Shown: positions 422 to 27,312 of the stretch, piece by piece
Layout: the number at the start of each line of letters is the position of its first letter
Position numbering within the stretch: position 1 is the stretch's first letter
Source of the DNA: a virus
IMG/VR virus record: IMGVR_UViG_3300005532_000036
Span: 1-27,319 of that record
Direction: 5' to 3' (one strand)
DNA length: 27,319 nucleotides
Notes under the pieces: model-generated
Seen by the model: only the letters and a program-made list of their open reading frames with translations
Database searches by the model: none
What the model was told of the DNA's origin: nothing
Position numbers and translations under genes: made by a program

Positions 422-1120
422 ATGGCAGACCCCGACCGACCGAACGCAATTCCGGAGCCCATGGGCCAGCCGGAACCTTCGACATCCCTCACCCTGGCTG
501 GCACACGGAGAGCGGTGGCGAACAAGAAGCGGCGATCAACGCTGGACATCATCGACCTTCCCGCCGAAGTTCCGGATGAAGATTGCGGTCCCGCCATGCG
601 TGCGCTCAACCAGCGGCAGCGGAAGTTCGTCCTGGCCTATCTGGCATTTGGATCGAAAGCGACGACCTTGTACGGTCTGGCTACTCGTGCTGCCAGGGCC
701 GCCGGCTACAAGGCGTCCTCGCGGCAATCCATGTCCAAGCAGGGATTCATCCTGATGCACAATCCGAAGGTGCTGTCGGCCCTTCGGGAGGAAGCGATGG
801 TCAAGAGCGCCTTGATTGGTCCTTTGCTCATGGAGCAACTGGCGCTCATGGCAATCAGCGAAAAAGACCCGAGACTTCGGTTCCAGGCCATGCTGGCGAC
901 GCTGGACCGTACTGGCTATCACGTGGTCACGGAGCATCACGTGAAGACCGAGGATGTGTCGAAGACCGAGGAAGCCTTGATCGCCAGATTGCGTCAGCTT
1001 ATTGCGCGCAATCCGGAGAACTTGAAGCTCGTTCCGATCACGCTGCGCGAGCGGCTTGGCCTGCCGATGCCGGAAGTCATAGATGCCAAGGCAAAAGAAG
1101 TCTCCCCGGCGGAGTCCTAA
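422..1120 (+). CDS. terS: Terminase small subunit
   Basis: This 232-residue protein is the likely DNA-recognition subunit of the packaging motor; it binds the phage packaging site and hands DNA to the large subunit. The middle of the protein (about residues 60-125) has the family pattern: a LNQRQRKFVLAYL-like helix, an ARAAGYK helix-turn-helix segment, then HNPKVLSALREEA, as in Terminase_2-type small subunits. The first 60 residues are polar and proline-rich, probably flexible; the C-terminal third is charged and may contact TerL. ATG at 422 is preceded by AGGA at 408-411. The gene overlaps terL by 38 bases, so translation is probably coupled. The family call is firm; the exact DNA site is unknown. 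Confidence 0.9.
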   Translation: MADPDRPNAIPEPMGQPEPSTSLTLAGTRRAVANKKRRSTLDIIDLPAEVPDEDCGPAMRALNQRQRKFVLAYLAFGSKATTLYGLATRAARAAGYKASSRQSMSKQGFILMHNPKVLSALREEAMVKSALIGPLLMEQLALMAISEKDPRLRFQAMLATLDRTGYHVVTEHHVKTEDVSKTEEALIARLRQLIARNPENLKLVPITLRERLGLPMPEVIDAKAKEVSPAES

Positions 1121-2603
1121 GGAAGAAACGGTTGCTCATCTTACCGCCGCGCACGCCAAGAGCAGCGGCGGTACGCTGGATGAAACCGTTGAACTTCTGG
1201 AATTGCTGGAGCGCCACAAGCGCGACTATCGCGCAACGTACTTCGTGCCGCAGAAGTATCAGGCGGAATTTTTCGATTTGGGCGAGAAGTACAGGGAACG
1301 CATGCTCCAGGCGGGCAACCGTGTCGGCAAGACCGAAGCCGGAGCATACGAGGTCACCTGCCATCTCACTGGCGAATATCCTTCCTGGTGGAAGGGTCAC
1401 AGATTCGAGCACCCTGTTGTGTGTTGGGTCGCCGGCGTTACCAGTCTTGCCGTGCGTGACGTGATCCAGACAAGGTTGTGCGGTCCTTACGGTCTCCCGG
1501 AAGCGCTCGGGACCGGCATGATTCCGAAAAGCGCGTTCAAGGAGAAACCATCCCTGGCGCGCGGTATCACGGACGCATACGACACCGCGTTCGTCTATCA
1601 TCGCACGAACGGCGAGATTGATGGCGTCTCGACGTTATCCTTCAAATCGTATGAACAGGGCGCCGGCAAGTTCGTCGGCGGTACTGTCGATCTCGGATGG
1701 GCTGACGAGCCTCCGCCCGAGGATGTGTACGGCGAGTTCCTGACGCGCATTCGCCCTGGCGGAAGGATGATCATCACGGCCACGCCGTTGCAGCATGTGT
1801 GGGTTGCCAACAGATTCCTGGAGCCGCATCCGGATCGCGCAGTCGTCTACGCCGGTCTGGACGACTGCACGTTCTATACCGAGGAGGAGAAGCAGCGGAT
1901 ATTGGAGAGCTATTTGCCGCACGAGCGTGATGCGCGACGGAAAGGACTGCCGATCCTTGGTACGGGAGCGGTGTTCCCGATTGATGAAAGTCTCATCAAA
2001 TGCGATCCGATATTCCCGATACCTTCATACTGGCGAAAGCTGTGGGCGGTTGACTTCGGCATTTCGCACCCGTTCGGTGCGGTACTGTTGGCGCACGATG
2101 CCGACAGAGACATAATCTACGTCGTCCACTGCATTCGGATGAAGGACGCCATGCCGATGCAGCATGCGGAGGCGATGAAGAATGTATGCGCTTCCGCCCC
2201 TGTGGCGTGGCCGCACGACGGTCACATACGCGACAAAGGTTCCGGCATTCCGCTGGCCCAGATTTACAAGAGCTACGGATTGAACATGCTGCCTACGCAT
2301 GCGACGTTCCCGGACGGGGGGATTTCATTCGAAGGCGGCATCATGGAGATGTACAACCGCATGACTGCTCAGCGGTTGCGGGTCTACAACTATTGCACCG
2401 AATGGTTCCAGGAGTTCAGATATTACTACCGGGACAAGAACGGGAACGTGGTCAAGAAGGATGACGACCTCCTGTCGGCAACCCGGATCGGCGTCATGAC
2501 CATCCGTTCCGCCCGCGCCGTGGAGATGGGGTCTGTAAATCGCGGGAAGCACCGGGAGTCGTTCCTGGGAGACTATGTTGACTTCGATCTCTTCAAAGTA
2601 TAG
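1083..2603 (+). CDS. terL: Terminase large subunit (ATPase and nuclease)
   Basis: This 506-residue protein is the packaging motor ATPase and DNA-cutting nuclease. A Walker A motif (GNRVGKT, residues 78-84) and a Walker B motif ending in Asp208-Glu209 followed by two prolines mark the ATPase domain; ITATP about 30 residues later fits the coupling motif. The nuclease domain starts near WAVDFG (Asp324); Asp379 and the acidic cluster Asp460-462 are good candidates for the remaining metal ligands. Length and motif order fit podovirus TerL proteins. ATG at 1083 lies inside the end of terS with GGAAG at 1072-1076 six bases upstream, which decides the start. All expected catalytic features are present, so it looks functional. 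Confidence 0.95.
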   Translation: MPRQKKSPRRSPKEETVAHLTAAHAKSSGGTLDETVELLELLERHKRDYRATYFVPQKYQAEFFDLGEKYRERMLQAGNRVGKTEAGAYEVTCHLTGEYPSWWKGHRFEHPVVCWVAGVTSLAVRDVIQTRLCGPYGLPEALGTGMIPKSAFKEKPSLARGITDAYDTAFVYHRTNGEIDGVSTLSFKSYEQGAGKFVGGTVDLGWADEPPPEDVYGEFLTRIRPGGRMIITATPLQHVWVANRFLEPHPDRAVVYAGLDDCTFYTEEEKQRILESYLPHERDARRKGLPILGTGAVFPIDESLIKCDPIFPIPSYWRKLWAVDFGISHPFGAVLLAHDADRDIIYVVHCIRMKDAMPMQHAEAMKNVCASAPVAWPHDGHIRDKGSGIPLAQIYKSYGLNMLPTHATFPDGGISFEGGIMEMYNRMTAQRLRVYNYCTEWFQEFRYYYRDKNGNVVKKDDDLLSATRIGVMTIRSARAVEMGSVNRGKHRESFLGDYVDFDLFKV

Positions 2604-2611
2604 AGTCTCCG

Positions 2612-2746
2612 ATGGAGAGTCGAATCAACTCGCTGGATTTGCCAATGCTTGGGTTTCTGATCGGTGTCGGGGCCGGTATCGCCGTCGTGGTTCTGGTTGT
2701 GTGGCTTGCCAAGAAGTACGGCGTCGTATTCCCCGACCTTCACTGA
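2612..2746 (+). CDS. Single-TM small membrane protein
   Basis: This 44-residue ORF has a short polar N-terminus, one strongly hydrophobic segment (about residues 12-35, rich in G, V, I and L) and a KK pair just after it. It starts 8 bases after the terL stop, with a weak purine-rich stretch overlapping that stop as ribosome site. The basic residues after the membrane segment suggest N-out/C-in topology. It precedes a secreted protease, an endolysin and a holin-like protein, so a role in lysis (holin, pinholin or antiholin) is possible, but no family is recognised. It could also be a superinfection-exclusion peptide. Confidence 0.6.
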   Translation: MESRINSLDLPMLGFLIGVGAGIAVVVLVVWLAKKYGVVFPDLH

Positions 2747-2840: not shown

Positions 2841-3581
2841 ATGAAAAGACTGGCCGCCCTTGCGTTCCTCCTGATCTCTCCACCCTCCATCGCTGCCGTT
2901 CCTTCTCCGGTCGTCCAGGCCGTCGAGGCCAACTGGATCGTTGATCGCGGCTGCTCGGGCACGCTGCTCGACAAGGACAAGGGTCTGTTCCTGACCGCCT
3001 ATCATTGCATCCAGTCGTCCTACATCGTCGTGGAGAAAGACGACATCAAATCGGATGGCACGGTCGACCACAAGAAGGTGAGAGTCTCGGTTCCCGGCCG
3101 CGTCTGGAAGATGAATTACCGGGCGATGCTGGAAGTCTCGGAGAAGGCGCTGGTGTATTCGATTGAGAAGTCCGACTGGCGTCTCGATCTCGCCCTTCTC
3201 AAGACCGATCCGGTTCCGAATGGTGTTGCGGTCAAGGTTGCTTGCCAGCCTGCCCAGTTGGGTTCGGATGTCTACGCTGTCGGCAATCCATATGGGATTC
3301 TCGACTCCACGCTCACTGCCGGCACGGTGTCGTCCGTGACGCGCAGCTACAGGGATTTGCATATCGCCGGCGACCTGGGCGACGTGACTGATCCCGGCGA
3401 CCATGGTCTGGTTCAGCATACGGCGACCATCGCACCCGGCAATTCGGGCGGGGCGCTCCTGAATGCGAACGGCGAACTGGTCGGCGTCAACGTGCGCGGT
3501 CTTGCTGGCGTCGTTGCGTTTGCGGTGCCGCTCCAGGATGTGCGCGAGTTTCTCGGGGATGTGATCCCCAAGTGTAAGTGA
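2841..3581 (+). CDS. Secreted trypsin-like serine protease
   Basis: The 246-residue product begins with a typical Sec signal peptide (MKR, then a hydrophobic core, cleavage likely after SIAA near residue 19). The mature part has the S1/trypsin_2 (DegP-type fold) triad: His55 in TAYHC, Asp116 in LDLALLK and Ser202 in PGNSGGAL, with all local context intact. Cysteines near residue 38 and directly after His55 could form the disulfide seen next to the catalytic His in chymotrypsin-like enzymes, which fits export to the periplasm. There is no PDZ domain. AGGGAAG at 2830-2836 sets the ATG at 2841; a longer in-frame extension upstream lacks a site and would hide the signal peptide. Its stop overlaps the endolysin start. 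Such a protease is unusual in a phage late operon. It may act on envelope proteins during lysis or on surface receptors; the substrate is unknown. Confidence 0.88.
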   Translation: MKRLAALAFLLISPPSIAAVPSPVVQAVEANWIVDRGCSGTLLDKDKGLFLTAYHCIQSSYIVVEKDDIKSDGTVDHKKVRVSVPGRVWKMNYRAMLEVSEKALVYSIEKSDWRLDLALLKTDPVPNGVAVKVACQPAQLGSDVYAVGNPYGILDSTLTAGTVSSVTRSYRDLHIAGDLGDVTDPGDHGLVQHTATIAPGNSGGALLNANGELVGVNVRGLAGVVAFAVPLQDVREFLGDVIPKCK

Positions 3582-4498
3582 TGAATGACGACCTGTATCA
3601 TCATTACCTGTGGCTTGTGCGTCTGTGCGCACAGCGATGGAATGATTGTTCCATTGTTAATTCATATTACAAAAAGGCGCTTCAAGCGGCTCACAAGATA
3701 ATCGACAATTGCAGCCGTTACGAGAAAATCAGCGCGGTCGTTTCCGTTCCCTGGTACGTCATCGGGATCATCCACTATCGCGAGGCCGACCTGGATTTCT
3801 CCAGGAGCCCGGCACAGGGCGATCCCTGGTCGCGAAGGTCGATCCATATTCCTAAGAACCGGGGACCGTTTCCTTCCTTCGAGGCGGCGGCGATTGATGC
3901 TTTCGCCAACTGCCCGCCGAAGCTTGCCGAATGGCCGGATTGGTCGGTAGGCGGCCTGCTTGCGGCGTGCACGCTCTACAACGGCACGGCCTACGAGGTT
4001 TACCATGACATCGCCTCGCCCTACGTGTGGGCCGGCACATCGGCCTACAAGAAAGGTTTCTACATCGAGGATGGGAAATTCAGCGAGAAGGCGGTTGACC
4101 AGCGCCCCGGTTGCGCCTGCCTGCTCAAGGCGCTGATCGCGCTCGGCGTCAAGGTTGACGAAACTGAGTTGCCTTCCACACCGCCGTCGCCCAAGGCTCC
4201 TACCGGTGCCGATACGCCTGAGCCTCAACCGCCGCAATCGCCTTCCGAGACTCAGGATAATACTCAGGACGAGAATCCCATCGACACCGGCGAAAGGGTG
4301 GTTAGCCTGTTGGAAAGATTGAAGGCGTTGTTCAAATCCTGGCCGCTGTGGATCACGGGTGGGGCAACCATCAGCAGCGCGCAGCCGCTCGACAACGTGG
4401 TCTCCCTGCTTCACAACCCTGCCTTCTGGTTCGTCCTCATGGTGCTGGCGTTCCTCATCCTTCTGGCGGTCCACTGGATCGAAAGCGGCAAACGATGA
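3581..4498 (+). CDS. Muramidase-like endolysin with C-terminal membrane anchor
   Basis: The 305-residue protein has three parts. Residues 1-190 resemble phage lysozyme-family proteins, with the block VPWYVIGIIHYREADLDF holding the likely catalytic Glu68, followed by GDP, PKNRGPFPSFEAAAIDA and later a SPYVWAGTSAYKKG-like segment. Residues about 194-237 are a proline, serine and acidic linker. The C-terminus ends with one strong TM helix (about 281-300) and a short basic tail. I infer a cell-wall hydrolase tethered to the inner membrane by its tail. There is no N-terminal signal peptide. ATG 3581 shares a base with the protease stop (TGATG); a GTG one codon earlier is possible. It overlaps the next gene by ATGA. 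The family assignment is from remembered motifs and is good but not certain. Confidence 0.75.
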   Translation: MNDDLYHHYLWLVRLCAQRWNDCSIVNSYYKKALQAAHKIIDNCSRYEKISAVVSVPWYVIGIIHYREADLDFSRSPAQGDPWSRRSIHIPKNRGPFPSFEAAAIDAFANCPPKLAEWPDWSVGGLLAACTLYNGTAYEVYHDIASPYVWAGTSAYKKGFYIEDGKFSEKAVDQRPGCACLLKALIALGVKVDETELPSTPPSPKAPTGADTPEPQPPQSPSETQDNTQDENPIDTGERVVSLLERLKALFKSWPLWITGGATISSAQPLDNVVSLLHNPAFWFVLMVLAFLILLAVHWIESGKR

Positions 4499-4806
4499 CG
4501 TGGACCTTACTCACGACCCTGTTTCATCTGGCGGCCTATTGGATTGCCTTGATCGTTGTTCTGGCGATTGCGGTCGTTGGCGTTCTTTATTCGCCAATCG
4601 GCAAGCTTCTGTTCGTCGGTATCGGCGTCGGGGCTCTCCTGACCGTGGGTTTGCAGTACGGCTGGATACGCTGGCGTCCCGAAGTCCAGGAATGCCGGAA
4701 TCCGGCTTATGATCCGAATGGTCCGGCCTGCCGGAAGTGGGTTTCTACCGATTCCGACCGTGGTTACGGGTATTGGGTAACTATTCCTTGCCCCGATTCC
4801 CGATAA
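4495..4806 (+). CDS. Two-TM holin-like membrane protein
   Basis: The product has 103 residues with two long hydrophobic segments (about 5-31 and 36-57) joined by a short SPIGK turn. The C-terminal 45 residues are soluble and contain three cysteines and several aromatic residues. It starts within the endolysin stop (ATGA), so the two are translationally coupled. Position directly after an endolysin makes a holin or lysis-accessory role the best guess. The cysteine-bearing tail is unlike simple holins and could lie in the periplasm. No family is recognised; an alternative is a membrane partner for the anchored endolysin. Confidence 0.65.
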   Translation: MTWTLLTTLFHLAAYWIALIVVLAIAVVGVLYSPIGKLLFVGIGVGALLTVGLQYGWIRWRPEVQECRNPAYDPNGPACRKWVSTDSDRGYGYWVTIPCPDSR

Positions 4807-4822: not shown

Positions 4823-5023
4823 ATGCCGCTGATGAATCAGAAGAACATGATGCTGTCGCCGGCAGCGATTGATCTTGGTCTTGGCGCCAGTCTCCAGACT
4901 CAGGTGCAGGACGAGATTGAGGAGATTCGCAAGCGCCGCAAGCAGCAGAATACCGGCATGCTCCTGTCGCCGGCCGGCGTGACGCTTCTCCAGCTTGGAG
5001 GTCTAGGTGGCTCGCAACTCTAA
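4823..5023 (+). CDS. Small conserved pre-portal protein
   Basis: The 66-residue protein has a LSPAAIDLGLG block, a charged helix with QVQDEIEEIRKRRKQQ and a repeated LLSPAG phrase near the C-terminus. Small proteins of this kind sit just before the portal gene in related podoviruses; their role is not known to me. No Shine-Dalgarno sequence precedes ATG 4823, and the promoter at 4788-4816 would start transcription at this ATG, so it may be read from a leaderless mRNA; ATG 4832 is an alternative with the same problem. It overlaps the portal gene by 17 bases, so its translation may help set portal expression. Confidence 0.7.
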   Translation: MPLMNQKNMMLSPAAIDLGLGASLQTQVQDEIEEIRKRRKQQNTGMLLSPAGVTLLQLGGLGGSQL

Positions 5024-6749
5024 GGATGTTCGGAACGACGAGGAGTTGTTCCGCGACATCATGCGCGAGTTCAACGAATTGCAGGTCTGGCGGCATACGA
5101 CTGCCGGCCAGTGGGAGGAAATTGCCGAACTGATTCTGCCGAATTTCCGAAATACGTTCTTCTACGGCAACTACAATTTCCCCGGCCAGAAGAAGACTCA
5201 GCGGCAGATCGACGCCAATGGGCAGGTCGCGCTCAGTCGCTTCGCCGCCATCTGCGATAGCCTGCTGACGCCGCGCAATATGTTCTGGCACCATCTGTCC
5301 ACCATGGACAAGACGCTGGCTCGCCGGCGCGATGTGCGTCTCTACTTCGAGGCCGTGACGCACACGCTGTTCCAGTATCGCTATGCGGCGCTTTCCAACT
5401 TCGCTTCTCAGAACAATGCCGTGTTCACGTCGGTCGGTGCATTCGGCACCGGCGGTCTCTATTGCGAACCGTTGTTTGCTCCGTATGGGCAGCGCGGTTT
5501 GCGATACTGCTCCATCCCGCTCGGAGAGTTGTTCATCCGCGTCAACTACCAGAACCAAGTCGATGGCTTCATTCGCTGGTTCCGTCTGACTGCCCGGCAG
5601 GCGGCACAGAAGTTCGGTTACGACAATTTGCCCGAGGTGTTGAAGTCGGCAATCGAGAAAGGAAGTGAGCAGCCTTACAACTTCCTGCATCGCGTCGTGC
5701 CGCGCGATGACTACGATCCGCAACGGCTGGATCACAAGGGCATGTTCTACACGTCGCAGTACGTCTCCATCGAAGGGCAGACGATTCTGCGAGAGGGCGG
5801 CTATCACACGTTGCCCATTGCCGTGGCGCGTTACGATCAAGCTCCTGGCGAGGTCTACGGACGCTCGCCGGCCATGAATGTCCTTCCTGCGCTGAAAACC
5901 TTGAATGCGCAGAAGGCGACATTCCTGAAACAAGGACACCGCGCATCCGATCCGGTCTATCTGGTTGCCGATGATGGCCTCATGTCCATGGACATGCGCC
6001 CCGGCGCATTCAACCGTGGCGGCGTCAGCCCCGAGGGTCGTCTGCTCGTTCAAATGCTGCCTACCGGCAACATCCAGATCAACGAGAAGATGATGGAGGC
6101 GGAGCAGAAGTTGATTGGCGACGCCTTCCTGGTGACGCTGTTCCAGATTCTGGAGGAGACACCGCAGATGACTGCGACGGAGGTCATCGAGCGTGTCAAT
6201 GAGAAGGGCATTCTGCTGGCACCGACCGTTGGCCGGCTGCAATCGGAGTATCTTGGCCCGCTCATTGATCGCGAGCTTGATGTCCTCTCGCAGTTGAAGC
6301 TGCTGCCACCGATGCCTCAAATCCTTAGAGAAGCGGGGGCGGAGTATCATGTCGTCTACACGTCGCCGTTGGCGCGAGCTATGCGAGCGCAAGAAGCGGC
6401 TGGTTTCATGCGTACAGTGGAAAGCGTTAAAGAGTTGGTTAATATTACGGGTGATCCTTCTCTGCTGGACCCTTTCAATTTTGATGTTGCTGTCCCTGCT
6501 ATCGCTGATATACAGGCAGTCCCCGAAAGCTGGCTTGCCACACCTCAAGAGATTCGGGCAAAACGACAGGCACGCGCCAAAGCGCAACAGCAGCAGGCGC
6601 AAATCCAGTCGCTACCAGCCCAAGCGGCGATGCTCAAAGCGCAAGCCGTTGTGGCAAAGAACATGCCTGGAATTACGCCGGGTGAGCGAGGAATTGGCGG
6701 CCCTATGACTCAACCGCAGACTCCAGTTCCGCCGCCTAGAAACGTGTAG
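5007..6749 (+). CDS. Portal (head-tail connector) protein
   Basis: The 580-residue protein is the T7-type portal that forms the dodecameric ring at one capsid vertex, docks the terminase and leads DNA out. Family signs include W..IAELILPNFR near the N-terminus, LLTPRNMFWH (about 86-95), GTGGLYCEP and the APGEVYGRSPAMNVLPALKTLN block (about 285-306), followed by the DPVYLV wing segment and a TATEVIERVNEK helix. The last 60 residues are glutamine, alanine and proline-rich. The start is GTG 5007, chosen because GGAGG at 4997-5001 sits five bases upstream. The part from about 6330 to 6560 is visibly richer in A/T codons than the rest, which hints at recombination near the 3' end. Confidence 0.93.
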   Translation: MARNSKDVRNDEELFRDIMREFNELQVWRHTTAGQWEEIAELILPNFRNTFFYGNYNFPGQKKTQRQIDANGQVALSRFAAICDSLLTPRNMFWHHLSTMDKTLARRRDVRLYFEAVTHTLFQYRYAALSNFASQNNAVFTSVGAFGTGGLYCEPLFAPYGQRGLRYCSIPLGELFIRVNYQNQVDGFIRWFRLTARQAAQKFGYDNLPEVLKSAIEKGSEQPYNFLHRVVPRDDYDPQRLDHKGMFYTSQYVSIEGQTILREGGYHTLPIAVARYDQAPGEVYGRSPAMNVLPALKTLNAQKATFLKQGHRASDPVYLVADDGLMSMDMRPGAFNRGGVSPEGRLLVQMLPTGNIQINEKMMEAEQKLIGDAFLVTLFQILEETPQMTATEVIERVNEKGILLAPTVGRLQSEYLGPLIDRELDVLSQLKLLPPMPQILREAGAEYHVVYTSPLARAMRAQEAAGFMRTVESVKELVNITGDPSLLDPFNFDVAVPAIADIQAVPESWLATPQEIRAKRQARAKAQQQQAQIQSLPAQAAMLKAQAVVAKNMPGITPGERGIGGPMTQPQTPVPPPRNV

Positions 6750-6758
6750 GAGAGTTCA

Positions 6759-6968
6759 ATGGCTGACAACGACATCGACATGGCCCACGCTGAAATTGCG
6801 CGCAGCAAGAATGATGCTCACGCGTCGAATGACACGTCGTCATTCGTCGGCAACATGGGAACGGCGATGAACTTCCTGATCATGTCGCGACCGTTCGGGG
6901 ATTCGTTCCTCCAGGCTGGTCGCGACGCGTATCGGACGTATCACGACGCCGGTGGGAATCAGACTTAA
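6759..6968 (+). CDS. Small protein, paralogue of the 10289 gene
   Basis: The 69-residue protein has AGGAGAG (6748-6754) before its ATG. Its first 29 residues match those of the small gene at 10289 closely: both have D.D.AHA.I...KNDAHAS.DTS.F. The C-terminal halves differ; this one has a hydrophobic segment (MGTAMNFLIMS) and then a polar tail. It ends in TAATG with the next gene. Function is unknown; position among portal and scaffold genes suggests a role in head assembly. Confidence 0.7.
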   Translation: MADNDIDMAHAEIARSKNDAHASNDTSSFVGNMGTAMNFLIMSRPFGDSFLQAGRDAYRTYHDAGGNQT

Positions 6969-7297
6969 TGTCTCTCACCAAGCTTGCGGAAGCTCAGCGT
7001 CGCGTATGGGCTACGCTTTCATTCCTGCGCCAGCGGAAGGCGAACTATCGTTCGGTTTTCACTTCTCCCGCCGGCGAGGAAGTTCTGCTGGACTTGGTGA
7101 AGTTCACCAAGTTTCTTGAAGGGCCTGTCGGCCGGTCGAATGAGGAGACGTGGCGCTTGATCGGTCGGCAGGATGTATTACGTCGGATTCAGCAGCACTG
7201 CAATCTGACGGTCGAGCAATTGTTCGCGCTTTACTCGGCGCAGCCTGTGCCGACGTATGCGCAATTAGCCAAAGCAAATGAGGGTGACGATGAGTGA
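6968..7297 (+). CDS. Bbp19-like phage protein
   Basis: The 109-residue protein has YRSVFTSPAGEEVLLDLVKF followed by a polar loop with an ETWRLIGRQDVLRRIQ helix and an L.VEQLF helix. This pattern of an F..P.G..VL.DL segment, a GR..V..RI helix and an aromatic C-terminal helix fits the Bbp19 family named after phage BPP-1, found next to portal/scaffold genes. Biochemical role is unknown. Start shares an A with the previous stop (TAATG); the end overlaps the scaffold start by 8 bases, so the three genes are coupled. Confidence 0.6.
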   Translation: MSLTKLAEAQRRVWATLSFLRQRKANYRSVFTSPAGEEVLLDLVKFTKFLEGPVGRSNEETWRLIGRQDVLRRIQQHCNLTVEQLFALYSAQPVPTYAQLAKANEGDDE

Positions 7298-8183
7298 CAC
7301 CACCACTACTCCGCCGGCTGGTCCGGAAAAGCCTGAGGCTGGCGCCAACACAGCGCCGCCTGCATCGGCCGGTGCGTCAGAACCTTGGTTCAAAGGTGCT
7401 GACGCTGAGATTATCGGACATCTTCAAGCCCATGGGTGGGATAAGAAAGATGCCCGAGAAGCGGCGCTCGAAGCGGTGAAGTCGTATCGTGAAGCTCAGA
7501 AGCTTCTCGGCGTTCCTCCGTCTGAGCTTGTTCGCATTCCTCGCGCGAACGACGAGACGGCGTGGCGTCAGTTTTATGAGAGACTAGGCGTCCCTCAGAA
7601 GCCTGATGACTACGACTTCTCGCAAATCAAGTTCTCAGATGGAGAGCCGCTGGATGGCGATTTCAAGACGTGGGTCGCGACGCTCGCGCACAAATATCAT
7701 CTCAACAAGAATGAAGCCTTGTCCTTTGCGCAGGACATCGTTCGACAAATGGACGGCGCGGATGCGGCTGAGCGGGCGGAACAGACAGCGAAACTCCAAG
7801 AGGAAAAAGCCAAGCTCCAGCAGAACTGGGGCGCGAACTTCGAGGTCAACAAATTCCTCGCCAATCAGGCCGCCCAACGTCTTGGCGTGACGCCGGAAGC
7901 CATCGCTGCCCTGGAGAACCAAATTGGCTATGCGGCAGTCATGGAGATGTTCCGTAAGATCGGCTCAGCCATGGGCGAGGACACGTTGATTCGTGGCAAT
8001 CGTCCAGCCGGTGGTGGCGTCATGACTCGGGAGGAAGCCATTGCCAAGAAAGCCGAGTTGATGGCTGACCCGGCATGGCGAGAGCGTTACCTGGGAGGCG
8101 GGCTCGCGGAGCGTCGCGAGATGCTGGCGTTGCAGGCCATCATCACGGGCGTTGACGTTTCGTCCGCGCTGATCCGTGCCTAG
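7290..8183 (+). CDS. Capsid assembly scaffolding protein
   Basis: The 297-residue protein is acidic and mostly helical. An unstructured P, A and T-rich start (1-35) is followed by a segment with WRQFYERLGVPQKPDDYDF (about 87-105), a phrase typical of podovirus scaffolds, a charged coiled-coil-like stretch (about 150-185) and a helical C-terminus that would bind the coat protein. Scaffolds guide coat proteins into the procapsid and leave or are degraded before packaging. AGGG at 7281-7284 points to ATG 7290; an in-frame ATG at 7278 has no site. It sits two small genes before the coat gene, as expected. No protease domain is fused to it. Confidence 0.85.
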   Translation: MSDTTTTPPAGPEKPEAGANTAPPASAGASEPWFKGADAEIIGHLQAHGWDKKDAREAALEAVKSYREAQKLLGVPPSELVRIPRANDETAWRQFYERLGVPQKPDDYDFSQIKFSDGEPLDGDFKTWVATLAHKYHLNKNEALSFAQDIVRQMDGADAAERAEQTAKLQEEKAKLQQNWGANFEVNKFLANQAAQRLGVTPEAIAALENQIGYAAVMEMFRKIGSAMGEDTLIRGNRPAGGGVMTREEAIAKKAELMADPAWRERYLGGGLAERREMLALQAIITGVDVSSALIRA

Positions 8184-17336: not shown

Positions 17337-17831
17337 ATGGCTGGCGCACTAAGCGGATTCTTCGGTGGCATTGGGAGTGCCGTGGGCGCGTTCTTTGGCG
17401 CCCAGGGCAGCGAGGATTTGGCGCAGGGCGATTTCCAGGCGGCGAAGCTGTACGCTGACGCTGCCGACATCGCCAAGCAAAACGTTCAGATCGCCAAGGA
17501 AAGTACCATCATTCAGGAGGCGCAGCTACAGCGCCAAATCACCAAGACCATAGGGGCCGAGCAGGCAGCCATTGCCGGCAACAATCTCCAAGGCGGCTCG
17601 GCTGGTGACTTGATCCGGTCATCCATGCAGCAGGGGGCATTGGCGCGGGCTGTCCTGTCACAGCAGGGTTTCCTGGAACAACAGCAGTTCAAGCAGCAGG
17701 CTCTCGGTCTGGAGGCGCAGGAAGCGGCTGCCGTGGCTGCCGGTAATGCCGCACTCCAGTCGGCGGCGGCGCAGCGATGGGGCGGCATCTTCTCCCTGAT
17801 CGGTGGCGTCGTCGGATTGTTCGGGTTGTAA
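17337..17831 (+). CDS. Internal virion protein B-like
   Basis: The 164-residue protein has a glycine/alanine-rich hydrophobic N-terminus (GALSGFFGGIGSAVGAFFGA), a long alanine/glutamine-rich helical middle with coiled-coil character (about 30-140), and a hydrophobic C-terminus (GGIFSLIGGVVGLFGL). This layout and its place between the nozzle and the large ejection proteins match T7 gp14-type internal core proteins, which form the outer-membrane part of the ejection channel. GGAG at 17324-17327 precedes ATG 17337. The similarity is one of layout and composition, not a specific motif. Confidence 0.72.
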   Translation: MAGALSGFFGGIGSAVGAFFGAQGSEDLAQGDFQAAKLYADAADIAKQNVQIAKESTIIQEAQLQRQITKTIGAEQAAIAGNNLQGGSAGDLIRSSMQQGALARAVLSQQGFLEQQQFKQQALGLEAQEAAAVAAGNAALQSAAAQRWGGIFSLIGGVVGLFGL

Positions 17832-17832
17832 A

Positions 17833-20010
17833 ATGCCAATCATCCGCGAATACGAAGCAGGTAATGTCAGGCTCACGCCGGAGACGCAGGGCATTTCAGC
17901 CTTGCGCGAAGCTGGTTTCATGGCGACGCGGTATGCATCCCAGGCACACGCCGAGATGGACATTGCCGGTCGAGCCTTGGCAACCGGCATTGCCCATCTT
18001 GGCGCGGCTGCTCAGGAACTTTACGACAAGTGGAAAGAGCATAACGATGCGCAGGCGGAAATTGACGCTCAGCATCGGATCACCAATCTGGAATTGCAGG
18101 CTATCGGTGGGCTGAATACGGCTGGCACCCCAGTTGATCTGGCAACCGGCGAGCCTATCCAGCACAGCCCGGCTCGCGGTGGTCCCTCATTACCGCAAAC
18201 TGCCGTAGCTCCGCATCCGCAGCGATTCATGGCGTCGGCTGCCGATATTATGCAGCAGCATGACGACGCCATGAAGGAGTCGCTGACTGCTGCGCAGGAG
18301 ATGGGCGCAAGCCAGAAGGCTCAGGAGCGGATTGCCAAGCAGTGGGAGGAGAGCCGACGCCGGCTGGCACTCCATGCTGCCGTCGTCCAGGGCGAGGTTG
18401 ACATCAACCACGCCATCCACACCACGGAGCAGAACATCAACAGCATCCTGGGGTCTATCGACAAAGACCCCTCGATCCTGCCGCATGCGCTGGAGCAGAT
18501 TGACGCCGCGATCAATGCAACCGCCAGTTCTATGAGCGGTACCGTAGCCGCCAAGGGCATGGAAGCCCTGGACAAGGCTCGCATGACGGCCAAGGCTCAG
18601 GCCATTACTGCCGCCATCTACAGCCGCGCCGCTGCTGGCGATGTCAAGGGTGCGTTGAATTTAATTGAGGATGACAAGTTCGCGCCCTTCATTGGAGATG
18701 ACAAGGATAAGCTGCGCAATCACGTTCGCACGCTGGAACGTCAGGCTATCTCGGATGCTGAGACCGCCCGCCGTATTCAGACACAACAGCAGCATGACGC
18801 TGCCATGGCGCGCGTGGATGAATACTTGCAGAACCCATCTCTCAAGCTGACGGATTTGCCGCGCGATCCGGTGTTCCGTGGTCGCCCGGACCTGCTTCAT
18901 CAAGCGGAGACCATCGTCAACGCCGTCCGCAACTACAACCCCGAGAAGGTGGATGCGATGGTATCGCAGACCACCACGACGGACTTCATGCGACGGATGC
19001 TGCTGCCGGACAACGACCCGATGCAGATCAAGACGCCGGATGAGATTTATCGGGCATTTGCAGACGGCAAGCTTCGCAAGGAAGACATGAACCTGCTGGT
19101 CGGGAAGCTGAAAGATTTGCAAAGCGATCCCAATCGCAGGCCAATGGAAAAGCTCCGCGAAGAATTCCTGAAAGCAATCGAGCCGACCATTGATCCAGCC
19201 CGCGCCGCTGGAATGAAGTCTGCCATTGGTTCACAGCGTCTTTTTGAGTTGCGCGTGGCGCTGATGAAAAAGGAAGCTGAACTCGGGCCGAATGCGTCCT
19301 CACTGTACGACCCGACCTCCCCGAACTATGTCGGCAAATCGGACTTCCTGGCGCCCTTCACGACTTCGACCATGGAAGGTTTGCAGGATCGCATCCGTTC
19401 CATGACCGGCAACAAGCAGTCGGCAGTCCAGCAGCCGACGGCAACCATGACGCACGAAGAAATTGCGTCCAACTTCAAGAACTTGTTCAGTTCGGGGCGT
19501 GCGACGGCATTGGGCTATAACTTCAATCCGCACACCGATCTCGTGACCATCAACACGCCGAGCGGTAAATCTGTCACGGTCAACAAATGGGCTGCGCCGC
19601 ATTTCGCTGCCTTCCTGAAAGACCTGGAAGCCCAGGGATACAAAATCAACGACATTGGTGGTTATGCAAATCGAACGAAGCGTGGGAGCATGTTCAGCTA
19701 TTCCGAACATGCGTTCGGCAACGCTATCGACATCAACCCATCCAGCAACCCGTTCCATGGCGACAAGACTGATCTGCCGGCGAACATTGCTCAACTTGCC
19801 GCCAAGCATGGATTGATTTGGGGCGGCAACTGGTCTCCGGGAAGCCGCGACCCGATGCATTTCGAGTGGTCCGGTGTCGAAGCTCCGGAGGTTGTGAAGA
19901 TTCCTCCCTCCATGACCTTGGAGGAAGCGTTGAAGAAATATCCTCCGGGAACGCATATCGAACTCCCGGATGGTCGTCGTAAAATCCTTCTGCCGCCGGG
20001 TCAGACTTGA
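17833..20010 (+). CDS. Internal virion protein with C-terminal M15 peptidase domain
   Basis: The 725-residue protein has a long, mostly helical, alanine/glutamine-rich body (1-540), a short linker and a C-terminal M15-type zinc peptidase. Likely metal ligands are His626 and Asp633 (SEHAFGNAID) and His676 in DPMHFEW, with Asp673 and an upstream GGYANR motif also fitting. M15 enzymes cut peptide cross-links or stems in peptidoglycan. I infer a core protein like T7 gp15/gp16 that opens the cell wall during DNA ejection. The last 40 residues after the domain are proline-rich and charged. ATG 17833 follows the previous stop by one base with no clear site, so coupling is likely; the longer frame from 17803 is discarded. 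Confidence 0.87.
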   Translation: MPIIREYEAGNVRLTPETQGISALREAGFMATRYASQAHAEMDIAGRALATGIAHLGAAAQELYDKWKEHNDAQAEIDAQHRITNLELQAIGGLNTAGTPVDLATGEPIQHSPARGGPSLPQTAVAPHPQRFMASAADIMQQHDDAMKESLTAAQEMGASQKAQERIAKQWEESRRRLALHAAVVQGEVDINHAIHTTEQNINSILGSIDKDPSILPHALEQIDAAINATASSMSGTVAAKGMEALDKARMTAKAQAITAAIYSRAAAGDVKGALNLIEDDKFAPFIGDDKDKLRNHVRTLERQAISDAETARRIQTQQQHDAAMARVDEYLQNPSLKLTDLPRDPVFRGRPDLLHQAETIVNAVRNYNPEKVDAMVSQTTTTDFMRRMLLPDNDPMQIKTPDEIYRAFADGKLRKEDMNLLVGKLKDLQSDPNRRPMEKLREEFLKAIEPTIDPARAAGMKSAIGSQRLFELRVALMKKEAELGPNASSLYDPTSPNYVGKSDFLAPFTTSTMEGLQDRIRSMTGNKQSAVQQPTATMTHEEIASNFKNLFSSGRATALGYNFNPHTDLVTINTPSGKSVTVNKWAAPHFAAFLKDLEAQGYKINDIGGYANRTKRGSMFSYSEHAFGNAIDINPSSNPFHGDKTDLPANIAQLAAKHGLIWGGNWSPGSRDPMHFEWSGVEAPEVVKIPPSMTLEEALKKYPPGTHIELPDGRRKILLPPGQT

Positions 20011-24211: not shown

Positions 24212-25180
24212 ATGGCTTTAGTTTTCATTGACGGATTCGACGGGTATGGCTCGTCGGTTCCCATTTCCTCAAAATGGCCGACACCGCCGGGGGTATCGCA
24301 GTTTCAAACAGGACGTTTTGGTGGTCAATCCCTTTCCATGTCGGTGCAAAGTGGAATTAATCTTACTTCCGGTACAGGGTGGGCTGTTGGAGTTGCTGTC
24401 AAACTCAACGGGACAATTAGCACCACCGCTCAATTAATTTCACTCAGAAATGGCACGACCCTTGTCGGTGTGATCGGTTTCAACTCTCTCAATCAGATTC
24501 TCGCTGCCACTACCTCATTAAGTTCACCATATGCTTCATCCAGCCAAAGCATCGCACAAAATGCGTGGAATTATATTGAATGGGTTGTAAACCTTGCATC
24601 GACAGGCGGAACGAGCCAAGTTTTCCTCAACGGCCAGCAAATAATCAATTTTACTGGTAATACCGGTAGTGGTGCAATTAATAACCTTCTGCTTGGAAAT
24701 TCTAACTCCGTCAGCTTCAATTTTGATGATTTCTACGTTTCATCTGGCGCAACCAGAATTGGCGAAGCTCGGGTCGAAACGCTCGCCCCGGCTTCCAACG
24801 ATGCTGTCCAATGGACGCCAAATGGTAACGCGAACAACTTCGGGTGTGTGAACGAATTGCCGTGGAACGGCGACACCACCTACATATCGTCCAGTACGCC
24901 TGGACAACAGGATACCTTCAACATCAACGCGCTGTCTTCGACACCGCTGAATATCTTTGCCGTGCAGGTGACATACGCCGCCCGCAAGGATGACGCGAAT
25001 ACTCGAACGATTGCCGGCGTTCTGAAAAGCGGTGCAGCGTCCGTCGTTGGCGCCAACAACAACCTTGCATCCACATATCAAGTCTTCTCCGACATCTACG
25101 CCAACGATCCGAATACATCGGCACCATGGTCGGCAGCCGCCGTCAACGCAGCCAAGATCGGCGTTCGTGAGGTGGTCTGA
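24212..25180 (+). CDS. LamG/concanavalin-like tail receptor protein
   Basis: The 322-residue protein starts with FIDGFDGYGS and has the jelly-roll pattern of concanavalin A/LamG-like phage proteins: WAVGVAVKLNG, a central WNYIEWVVNLA strand (about 118-128) with QVFLNGQQI, and FDDFYVSSG near residue 170. The C-terminal third (AVQWTPNGNANNFGCVNELPW to the end) is a recurrent companion domain in tail proteins. It probably binds surface sugars or protein at the tail tip. GAGG at 24203-24206 precedes ATG 24212. The first two-thirds are A/T-rich compared with neighbours, suggesting exchange. Stop and next start overlap (TGATG). Confidence 0.75.
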   Translation: MALVFIDGFDGYGSSVPISSKWPTPPGVSQFQTGRFGGQSLSMSVQSGINLTSGTGWAVGVAVKLNGTISTTAQLISLRNGTTLVGVIGFNSLNQILAATTSLSSPYASSSQSIAQNAWNYIEWVVNLASTGGTSQVFLNGQQIINFTGNTGSGAINNLLLGNSNSVSFNFDDFYVSSGATRIGEARVETLAPASNDAVQWTPNGNANNFGCVNELPWNGDTTYISSSTPGQQDTFNINALSSTPLNIFAVQVTYAARKDDANTRTIAGVLKSGAASVVGANNNLASTYQVFSDIYANDPNTSAPWSAAAVNAAKIGVREVV

Positions 25181-25428
25181 TGGCTCAACGCGTTACCGGC
25201 GTCGATGCAGAAGTCCTGCATACAGGCTCATCACAGCAACGTGTTACCGGCGTCGATGCGGAAGTGCTGCACACGGGTTCATCCAAGCAGCGCGTGACTG
25301 GCGTCGATGCGGAAGTCCTTCACGCAGGTTTTTCGCAGCACCGCGTTACCGGACTTGCGTTGGAAGTCCTTCGTTCTATATCATCGGTGCAGATCGCTGC
25401 GACACCGATGGTTGCCATGTGGGATTGA
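25180..25428 (+). CDS. Four-repeat tail-associated protein
   Basis: The 82-residue protein is almost entirely four tandem 17-residue repeats beginning QRVTGVDAEVLHTGSS, the fourth diverged. RVT...EVL repeats are seen in small phage proteins encoded next to tail receptor genes. Each unit would give one strand and one turn, so the repeats may add to a fibre or act as an adaptor. It begins in the stop of the lectin-like gene. The C-terminal 15 residues are not repetitive. There is no membrane segment. Confidence 0.75.
   Translation: MAQRVTGVDAEVLHTGSSQQRVTGVDAEVLHTGSSKQRVTGVDAEVLHAGFSQHRVTGLALEVLRSISSVQIAATPMVAMWD
25186..25389 (+). repeat. Four tandem 51-base coding repeats
   Basis: Four 51-base units encode the 17-residue repeats (25186-25236, 25237-25287, 25288-25338, 25339-25389). 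The first three are nearly identical at the protein level and differ mostly by synonymous bases, while unit four has changed strongly. Such arrays can gain or lose units by slippage. Confidence 0.85.
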
Positions 25429-25431
25429 ACC

Positions 25432-25593
25432 ATGCATCACCATCGCACAGTGCAAGTGATCGGAGACACGGTTGCGACTTCTGTGGTGGCGGCTAGTATG
25501 ACTGGAATCTTGCCCGACCTCGCTGCCGCCGCTGCGATCCTCTGGTACCTCTTGCAGTTCTACATCTGGTGGGAGGGGCGGAGGAAGAAGTGA
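25432..25593 (+). CDS. Holin-like small membrane protein
   Basis: The 53-residue protein has a polar N-terminus (MHHHRTVQVIGDTVATS), a single long hydrophobic segment (about 23-47, AAAAAILWYLLQFYIWW) and the highly basic tail EGRRKK. This layout matches short phage holins placed after the tail genes, as with T7 gp17.5. It has GGGA shortly upstream. Its 3' 101 bases overlap the minus-strand gene running towards it. With the lysis cassette at 2612-4806 the phage would have two separate sets of lysis membrane proteins; one may be an antiholin. Confidence 0.7.
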   Translation: MHHHRTVQVIGDTVATSVVAASMTGILPDLAAAAAILWYLLQFYIWWEGRRKK

Positions 25594-25883: not shown

Positions 25884-26255
25884 TCACGTTGCGTAGCTTT
25901 CCGGGAGGAACAGAACCTCAAGGCCAAGATACTTGGCGATCCTGTATTCTAGGGTTGCCCCTTTGCTGAAATTCCACCCTGGCAATAGGGCAATGGCGTC
26001 CGAGTTGATCAATGCGATGACGTCGAAGCAGAATGCAACCCGCAGATTGAAGCCATGGGCCAGCGCTTCCTTCTCATCCCCGGTCGGATTATTCCACGCT
26101 TCATGCGGGAACAGCAACCGATCATTCTCCGCCGGCGAGAAGACGTCGAAGCCTGCTTGACGAAGCCGTTCGGCAGCACGGTCGAAAGCGGGGAAGTTAA
26201 AAAACGGCTTCCCCCGCATTGGGCCGGCTAGGTACACTCGCTTTCGTCTCTCCAA
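25884..26255 (-). CDS. DUF4406, nucleoside 2-deoxyribosyltransferase-like protein
   Basis: The 123-residue protein starts RVYLAGPM and continues FNFPAFDRAAERLRQAGFDVFSPAE, a clear match to DUF4406. Glu103 in KGATLEYRIAKYLG is where the catalytic glutamate sits in nucleoside 2-deoxyribosyltransferases. These enzymes swap bases on deoxynucleosides or cleave the glycosidic bond; whether this one does is unproven. The start is TTG 26255, supported by GGAGG seven bases upstream (plus strand 26263-26267). It overlaps the metallophosphoesterase gene by 59 bases and leads straight into the DUF5664 gene, suggesting a joint role in nucleotide metabolism. Confidence 0.82.
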   Translation of the reverse strand: MERRKRVYLAGPMRGKPFFNFPAFDRAAERLRQAGFDVFSPAENDRLLFPHEAWNNPTGDEKEALAHGFNLRVAFCFDVIALINSDAIALLPGWNFSKGATLEYRIAKYLGLEVLFLPESYAT

Positions 26256-27312
26256 GAGTAATCCTCCATTGAGAGGTTACGCCCCGGGTCGGGTGCATGA
26301 ACCATAGAGCTTGACATGGCGGGGAGTACGGCGCGCGCAGAATGATGCGCGCAAACTCGTCGTAGCCTTTGAGGGTACCGTTGACGATGACCGGAATAAG
26401 ATCGCCACGCGGCTGGTATGAATGATAGTGACCGATGATCAATGTGTCGAAGGCTTTTTCTTCTTTTTGCAAAGCTGCATGAAGCTTAACCGAGCCGCGC
26501 GATATAGGTCCAACAGCACCGATAATTCCGTCTCCGCCTTTGACTCCGATTGAGTCTCCGTGCGTAAGCAGGAAAGAATGCCCGAAGATACGGAAATGGT
26601 AATCGGTTTCATCTGGAACGACGATGTTAATACTAGGACTGTTCGCGAAGTAGGCTCGCAAGTGGTGAAATATATTCCACTCGAAGGATTCGTATACACG
26701 ATTTTTCGCGCGTGGTTTTTGCGTGGTGCGACCATGGTTGCCTACGACGCACGGAACGAACACTTTCGTAAAATGCTTGCCCAGTTCCGTCAAGGCCCAT
26801 ATCAACATTTCCTCGACTTCGAGGATGGACACTTGCACCGGACCATCATTTGTCTCGCGAAGTTCTTCATGGATGGTGCCGGAAATGATGTCGCCGGCAA
26901 GACACACGACAATACCTGGATAATGCGGATCGACCACGTGGTTGAAAGCCAAATCCAGCGTTCGTTCGACAAGCAGACGAATGCGCCGTTTGGCGATGGT
27001 CCGATTGAACTCGTTCAGACCACCGGTCTGCGCAGCGTCGATCTTTTCGCCGTAGTGCCAATCCGACCAGATGGTGATCGGAACTTCTGCTTTTCCGGAA
27101 TGCTTTTTCTGTAGGTTCACGATCCACGATGGCGGCGAAACCGGAGCATCTTTCAGTTCGTATAGCTCCTGTCGGATGCGCTGAACTTCAAGCCGCTCGC
27201 GAGTTGCCTCGGCAAGCTGCTTCATCAGCGTCTTGTTCTGGAATTCCAGTTGCGAGATTTTATCCCGCAACGCAGCAATTTCTGTAGAAAGTTTTGGGTA
27301 AAGTTCTTTCAT
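26197..27312 (-). CDS. Calcineurin-like metallophosphoesterase
   Basis: The 371-residue protein has the complete metallophosphoesterase metal and catalytic set: Asp84-x-His86 (SDWHYG), Gly140-Asp141 (AGD), Gly191-Asn192-His193 (GNHGR), His251 (THGD) and Gly294-His295-x-His297 (GHYH). An N-terminal coiled coil (about 1-55) probably mediates oligomerisation. Phage enzymes of this kind are often annotated as DNA repair exonuclease-like, but the substrate may be nucleic acid, nucleotides or cyclic nucleotides. The ATG at 27312 is present; its ribosome site is cut off at the window edge, although the gene itself is complete. It heads the minus-strand operon as far as visible. Confidence 0.85.
   Translation of the reverse strand: MKELYPKLSTEIAALRDKISQLEFQNKTLMKQLAEATRERLEVQRIRQELYELKDAPVSPPSWIVNLQKKHSGKAEVPITIWSDWHYGEKIDAAQTGGLNEFNRTIAKRRIRLLVERTLDLAFNHVVDPHYPGIVVCLAGDIISGTIHEELRETNDGPVQVSILEVEEMLIWALTELGKHFTKVFVPCVVGNHGRTTQKPRAKNRVYESFEWNIFHHLRAYFANSPSINIVVPDETDYHFRIFGHSFLLTHGDSIGVKGGDGIIGAVGPISRGSVKLHAALQKEEKAFDTLIIGHYHSYQPRGDLIPVIVNGTLKGYDEFARIILRAPYSPPCQALWFMHPTRGVTSQWRITLGETKASVPSRPNAGEAVF

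Follow-up and report, generated by a model that had tools for sequence, protein, structure and literature searches.

The lysis of Gram-negative hosts by phages is described as three steps, which are assigned to a holin, an endolysin, and a spanin. The word protease is absent from a 2018 review of the enzymes with which phages breach envelopes (PMC6116005), and our literature search found no paper describing a protease of a phage lysis cassette. Phage-encoded trypsin-type domains are known as names in databases or in a survey that mentions one or more of them (PMC10783043), namely the HtrA-like protein of Rhizobium phage AF3 and the trypsin-like protease of Rhizobium phage P10VF and Sinorhizobium phage phiM9. 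The HtrA/Deg proteases (MEROPS S1C: DegP, DegQ, DegS, and PepD) are exported enzymes with a chymotrypsin fold, a His-Asp-Ser triad, and the motif GNSGG.

Here we describe an HtrA-fold serine protease, predicted to be exported, that is encoded directly before an endolysin in a virus record of 27,319 bases, probably a fragment, the whole of which we call the window. The proteins of AF3, P10VF, and phiM9 are like the window protease in fold and gave no tblastn match to it at the thresholds used. In the papers that we searched, the repeated association of such a virus-specific, exported protease with lysis cassettes appears not to have been described.

Results

The protease gene occupies positions 2841 to 3581 of the plus strand, with a good ribosome-binding site 5′ of its ATG at 2841 (CCAGGGAAGTGACATG), and its product of 246 amino acids is predicted to be a Sec-exported serine protease. 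An earlier note, made from the letters of this DNA, had named His55, Asp116, and Ser202 as a full catalytic triad. The open reading frame indeed translates as claimed, and the three residues sit in the proper motifs (TAYHC, LDLALL, and GNSGG). The Pfam profile Trypsin_2 matches with an E-value of 3.4e-22 over all 144 of its positions and the profile Trypsin with 2.7e-13, both far past chance, and PHROG protease families are matched as well. Across the aligned family the triad is invariant (His in 46 of 46 sequences, Asp and Ser each in 47 of 47), which places the proteins in clan PA, or S1 in the wide sense. A reading as a defence protein was rejected, as weak PADLOC matches to RT-Protease (1.9e-10) stem from the trypsin domain that those longer proteins have in common with it.

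The AlphaFold (AF2) model, built from six phage sequences (pLDDT 75.7, pTM 0.75), is a double beta-barrel. It matches PepD, DegQ, DegP, and DegS with VIA Z scores of about 23, the highest being 23.4 (rmsd 2.6 over 186 residues), and HtrA proteases are the nearest solved structures by both sequence and fold. The label 'trypsin-like' that had been given to the protein holds for the fold but not for trypsin proper, with its Arg/Lys specificity: the S1-pocket Asp of trypsin, six residues before the catalytic Ser, is replaced by Thr196 in the window protease, and most relatives have Gly, Ser, or Pro there and none has Asp. All NCBIfam matches are far under their whole-protein cut-offs, and there is no PDZ domain, as the chain stops at residue 246 directly after the protease domain. 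In the closer relatives the interval from His to Asp carries an additional charged stretch, which is modelled as beta-hairpins. The fold is ordinary.

The signal peptide and the cysteines placed for a disulfide, both also noticed earlier, recur throughout the family. The former is deduced from hydropathy and conservation: a hydrophobic N-terminal 15-mer is found in 44 of the 45 relatives with an intact N terminus, and the sole exception (L017) also resembles a signal peptide. Cys38 and Cys56 are at the site of the classical S1 disulfide, which they are predicted to form, and are present in every relative having the column (45 of 45 and 46 of 46). Cys245 is retained in 40 of 47 relatives, and Cys135 is invariant among the six closest relatives only. 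Export of the protease and its action outside the cytoplasm, as had been proposed, are well-supported predictions, and we infer that its location is the periplasm. Four close pairs of protease genes give dN/dS values of 0.08-0.14 (about 0.1), with dS near saturation in two of the pairs, which indicates purifying selection on the family. Together, the triad, the cysteine pair, the hydrophobic N terminus, and the dN/dS values establish a maintained, exported, and catalytically competent enzyme.

The family is almost purely viral: it was found in about 45 IMG/VR phages, in Sulfitobacter phages, and, as a distant relative, in Microcystis phage Mae-JY35. Successive scans, each with a larger alignment, recovered 54 IMG/VR loci, including a few more remote ones (L058-L060), and single-protein scans gave identical loci only. 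The core group shares the motifs W..MN..IDQTNF..CSGTL, HC, VGNP, and GNSGGALYN. Among cultured phages, only the Sulfitobacter phages and Mae-JY35 matched, and all other matches are generic HtrA segments. A first scan of 84,980 species genomes (GTDB) yielded no family member, and a second scan of the same genomes yielded generic HtrA matches, most of which are confined to the domain's C-terminal half; both scans rest on short peptide patterns, by which a rare cellular copy could be missed. Capture of a host gene was rejected on the outcome of these two scans.

As the earlier note stated, the gene lies between a terminase and an anchored endolysin. Upstream is the gene for the terminase large subunit, TerL (1083 to 2603, plus strand; PF03237, E 2.8e-21), an order also found in L018, L023, and L026. 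Between the two is a 44-amino-acid ORF with one TM helix (2612 to 2746, plus strand; MLGFLIGVGAGIAVVVLVVWLAKKYG) that has no clear ribosome-binding site and possibly, if tentatively, encodes a small holin-like protein. The endolysin gene (3578 to 4498, plus strand) starts at GTG 3578 or ATG 3581, and the stop of the protease gene overlaps this start in TGATG at 3579-3583 (AAGTGATGAATG); in L023 the two genes overlap by 10 nucleotides. The endolysin has a C-terminal TM helix, and the best PDB matches of its model all belong to the lysozyme superfamily (MltE, goose lysozyme, and GH23 chitinase), with modest VIA Z scores of up to 7.3; a PDB sequence search with its profile gave nothing useful. 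Overlapping its stop (ACGATGACG) is a gene for a 103-amino-acid protein with two TM helices and no recognised family (4495 to 4806, plus strand), which stands where the sister phages encode their Rz-like protein. The block also contains a 66-amino-acid ORF and ends downstream at the gene for the portal, or head-tail connector (5007 to 6749, plus strand; PF12236, E 3.3e-101).

The window phage is podovirus-like, with genes for TerS, TerL, portal, a Bbp19-like protein, capsid, tail, and internal virion proteins. Its TerL is nearest to those of Rhizobium etli phages (44.8% identity), and the sole cultured-phage relative of its endolysin, which carries a peptidoglycan-binding domain, is in Bradyrhizobium phage ppBjS10J-1. 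Both resemblances point to a host that is likely alphaproteobacterial. The endolysin itself is a member of a large phage family (122 matches; L143-L222) that has no Pfam model. Elsewhere in the window, positions 17803-20010 encode a probable virion protein of 735 amino acids that has an M15 peptidase domain at its C terminus (PF13539, E 2.5e-16) and that probably supplies a second peptidoglycan-cutting activity, for entry. The 1238-amino-acid protein encoded at 20007-23723 matches phrog_9854 (E 6e-73), a family without an assigned function, and is probably a virion protein of the internal or ejected kind. An 82-amino-acid ORF at 25180-25428 consists of tandem 17-residue repeats (RVTGVDAEVLHTGSSQQ; DNA period 51, 3.3 copies), and a 53-amino-acid ORF at 25432-25593, with one TM helix, a basic tail, and weak PHROG matches, has a holin-like look and is far from the endolysin gene.

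Among neighbours lying up to 5.5 kb from the protease gene, blind clustering ranked a GH24 lysozyme as the most frequent, at 9 of 43 loci and always within 0.75 kb. When 43 whole phage records were searched for endolysins, GH24 domains were found in ten and GH108 domains in two, all no more than 1.2 kb from the protease. A subset of 32 records added a muramidase in one and an Amidase_2 domain in one, both within 1.2 kb, the latter just past that record's GH108 gene. The five M15 peptidase matches are mixed: that of the window is the virion protein, one is adjacent to the protease, one is weak and 1 kb away, and the remainder are 1.3 kb away on the other strand and 14 kb away. Neighbours this close would arise by chance with a combined probability of 1e-3 across 12 groups, each entered at its worst case and with the four non-window M15 matches counted, or of 4e-4 across the nine groups whose records reach 20 kb or more; both values presuppose that genes are placed uniformly at random within incomplete records, and they handle shared ancestry only through one value per group.

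Many of the neighbour positions derive from our own ORF calls, made without curated annotation. By these, the order is TerL, protease, endolysin, Rz-like protein, and lipoprotein in L018, L023, L026, and L028, which the window follows without the lipoprotein. In L007 and L011 the protease gene comes last, after those for a small TM protein, lysozyme, and Rz-like protein. It follows lysozyme and holin genes in L036, and muramidase and holin genes in L048. GH108, TM protein, and XhlA genes precede it in the Sulfitobacter phages, as do amidase, TM protein, Rz, Rz1, and coil genes in Mae-JY35, and in L052 it precedes GH108 and amidase genes. Because the endolysins are unrelated and the gene orders differ, we argue that the protease has become associated with lysis genes repeatedly, in unrelated lineages represented by the window with L018, L023, L026, and L028, by L007 with L011, and by L036, L048, L052, the Sulfitobacter phages, and Mae-JY35. 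The association is real but not exclusive, since at least six relatives are located among DNA-metabolism genes (L022, L025, L034, L035, L047, and L049) and since the protease is near the window-type endolysin in the window phage only, 79 of the 80 phages with this endolysin having none nearby. The protease is therefore dispensable for lysis in general.

Another gene recurs at these loci. A metallophosphoesterase/exonuclease-like gene is often 3′ of the protease gene, as in the Sulfitobacter phages, L007, L044, L048, and Mae-JY35. The window has one at 26197-27312 on the minus strand (phrog_284, E 8e-45), and a relative of it (29% identity) is 3′ of the protease gene in L011. Separately, L144 encodes at 6001-7548 a window-type endolysin and then a two-TM protein and a lipoprotein, both of which are also found 3′ of the GH24 endolysin gene of L018; these two genes move together and may represent a spanin pair not described before.

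Discussion

Its position, gene coupling, and export fit a late periplasmic lysis helper, and we tentatively favour, at a little short of an even chance, an accessory protease that helps to dismantle the protein links of the envelope at lysis. The protease would probably be expressed late, from an operon that it shares with the endolysin. Exported by Sec and stabilised by its disulfide, the enzyme would accumulate in the periplasm and cleave proteins to which the envelope owes its cohesion, such as those that in Rhizobiales take over from Lpp in joining the outer membrane to peptidoglycan, so that the envelope would rupture faster or more completely after the endolysin has acted. It would operate alongside the holin, the endolysin, and, in several relatives, spanins, and would replace none of them. 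Rhizobiales are without Lpp, and their outer-membrane proteins are tethered covalently to peptidoglycan by L,D-transpeptidases (PMC10787603); a protein tether of this kind is a plausible target. Counting against a lysis role are the relatives among DNA-metabolism genes and the protease of L015, whose gene is between portal and scaffold-like genes. Furthermore, the borders of lysis modules are frequent sites for accessory genes, which could yield the same neighbour pattern.

In this regard, a serious rival, although one that we judge unlikely, is that the protease is accessory, moron-like cargo, which would be exported while the phage infects or is lysogenic and would cleave proteins of the cell surface or periplasm. 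Its targets could be receptors, blocking superinfection or keeping progeny from sticking to debris, or colicin-like or defence proteins, and its nearness to lysis genes would reflect a late-region insertion site. The rare and patchy occurrence of the protease, its absence near nearly all related endolysins, its several contexts outside lysis modules, and its export are all as expected of such cargo, whereas the repeated closeness to endolysins of different families and the overlapping genes fit joint function, or at least joint timing.

Alternatively, the protease might activate other lysis proteins, by freeing or activating membrane-anchored endolysins or by destroying periplasmic lysozyme inhibitors or an antiholin. 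The partner endolysins of L018, L023, and L028 have an N-terminal SAR-like helix (weaker in L007, L011, and L026), and those of the window, L021, L036, and L048 have a C-terminal TM helix. Anchored endolysins occur in six of 10 lineages, as compared with 14 of the 64 window-type controls, a weak excess (p 0.02) between sets that are not strictly comparable, SAR forms being absent from the control family. For the SAR endolysin of Mu, release by a protease has been considered, and thought unlikely (PMC9239132). The endolysins of L003, L051, L052, and Mae-JY35 carry no clear anchor. We regard activation as improbable.

Could the protease alone replace outer-membrane disruption in phages without spanins, as the earlier note's remark on the missing spanin might suggest? 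We consider this very improbable. The window indeed has no recognisable spanin: among its ORFs of at least 30 amino acids the lone lipobox-like one is an implausible antisense ORF, in a 27.3-kb record that is probably a fragment, and no lipobox ORF was recognised in the Sulfitobacter cassette. However, Rz and Rz1 genes are in the protease's own cassette in Mae-JY35 (phrog_1026, E 5e-12; phrog_1275, E 3e-13), the sister phages L018, L023, L026, and L028 encode a spanin-like two-TM protein and lipoprotein, weakly recognised by PHROG, and L014 has a candidate spanin pair. Spanin replacement as a general rule was rejected on the pairs in Mae-JY35 and the four sister phages. The suggested lysis role draws strength from the relatives that adjoin recognised endolysins and holins in unrelated phages, but its original argument, the missing spanins, is unsupported.

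Finally, we give the least credence to a virion-associated or maturation protease, which would either mature a virion protein or be carried in the particle to work during entry. Its late-region gene between TerL and portal (or portal and scaffold-like genes, in L015) might suggest this, but heads are assembled in the cytoplasm, from which a protein with the conserved signal peptide and disulfide cysteines would be exported. A prohead protease, as previously argued, is ruled out by the signal peptide and trypsin fold, the known types being cytoplasmic, herpes-like, ClpP-like, or U9-like, and acting on capsid or scaffold.

If the favoured role as a lysis helper is correct, a conserved exported protease in the lysis cassettes of unrelated phages would add a proteolytic step to lysis and would hint at how phages handle hosts that anchor the outer membrane via proteins other than Lpp. 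The broader proposal, in which exported proteases that sever outer-membrane tethers form an enzymatic class of lysis proteins in Gram-negative phages, so that lysis comprises holin, endolysin, spanin, and protease, we hold to be doubtful. Regardless, the family is defined and virus-specific, and its cultured members in Sulfitobacter phages make the idea testable.

Comparison with known systems

Two-component spanins of the Rz/Rz1 type share a cassette with the protease, and both would act on the same outer barrier. Rz and Rz1, however, are membrane-fusion proteins without enzyme activity, whereas the protease has a soluble enzyme domain, an ordinary signal peptide, and no lipobox. Their presence beside the protease in Mae-JY35 shows that the two are not equivalent, and argues against a simple spanin substitute.

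From the HtrA/Deg proteases, whose fold, triad, GNSGG motif, and export it has in common, the window protease is distinguished by its length of 246 amino acids without a PDZ domain, by the charged beta-hairpin stretch between His and Asp, by Cys38 and Cys56 at the S1 disulfide position, and by a virus-specific N-terminal motif. The Trypsin_2 proteases of Sulfitobacter phages pCB2047-A, pCB2047-C, and NYA-2014a (PHROG 9683) belong to the same family, with signal peptide, triad, and the Cys38-Cys56 pair, and their genes adjoin those for holin, XhlA, and endolysin. They are about 29-34% identical to the window protease and lack both its hairpin stretch and its C-terminal cysteine. Moreover, the Sulfitobacter protease gene is 3′ of the endolysin gene, whereas that of the window is 5′ of it.
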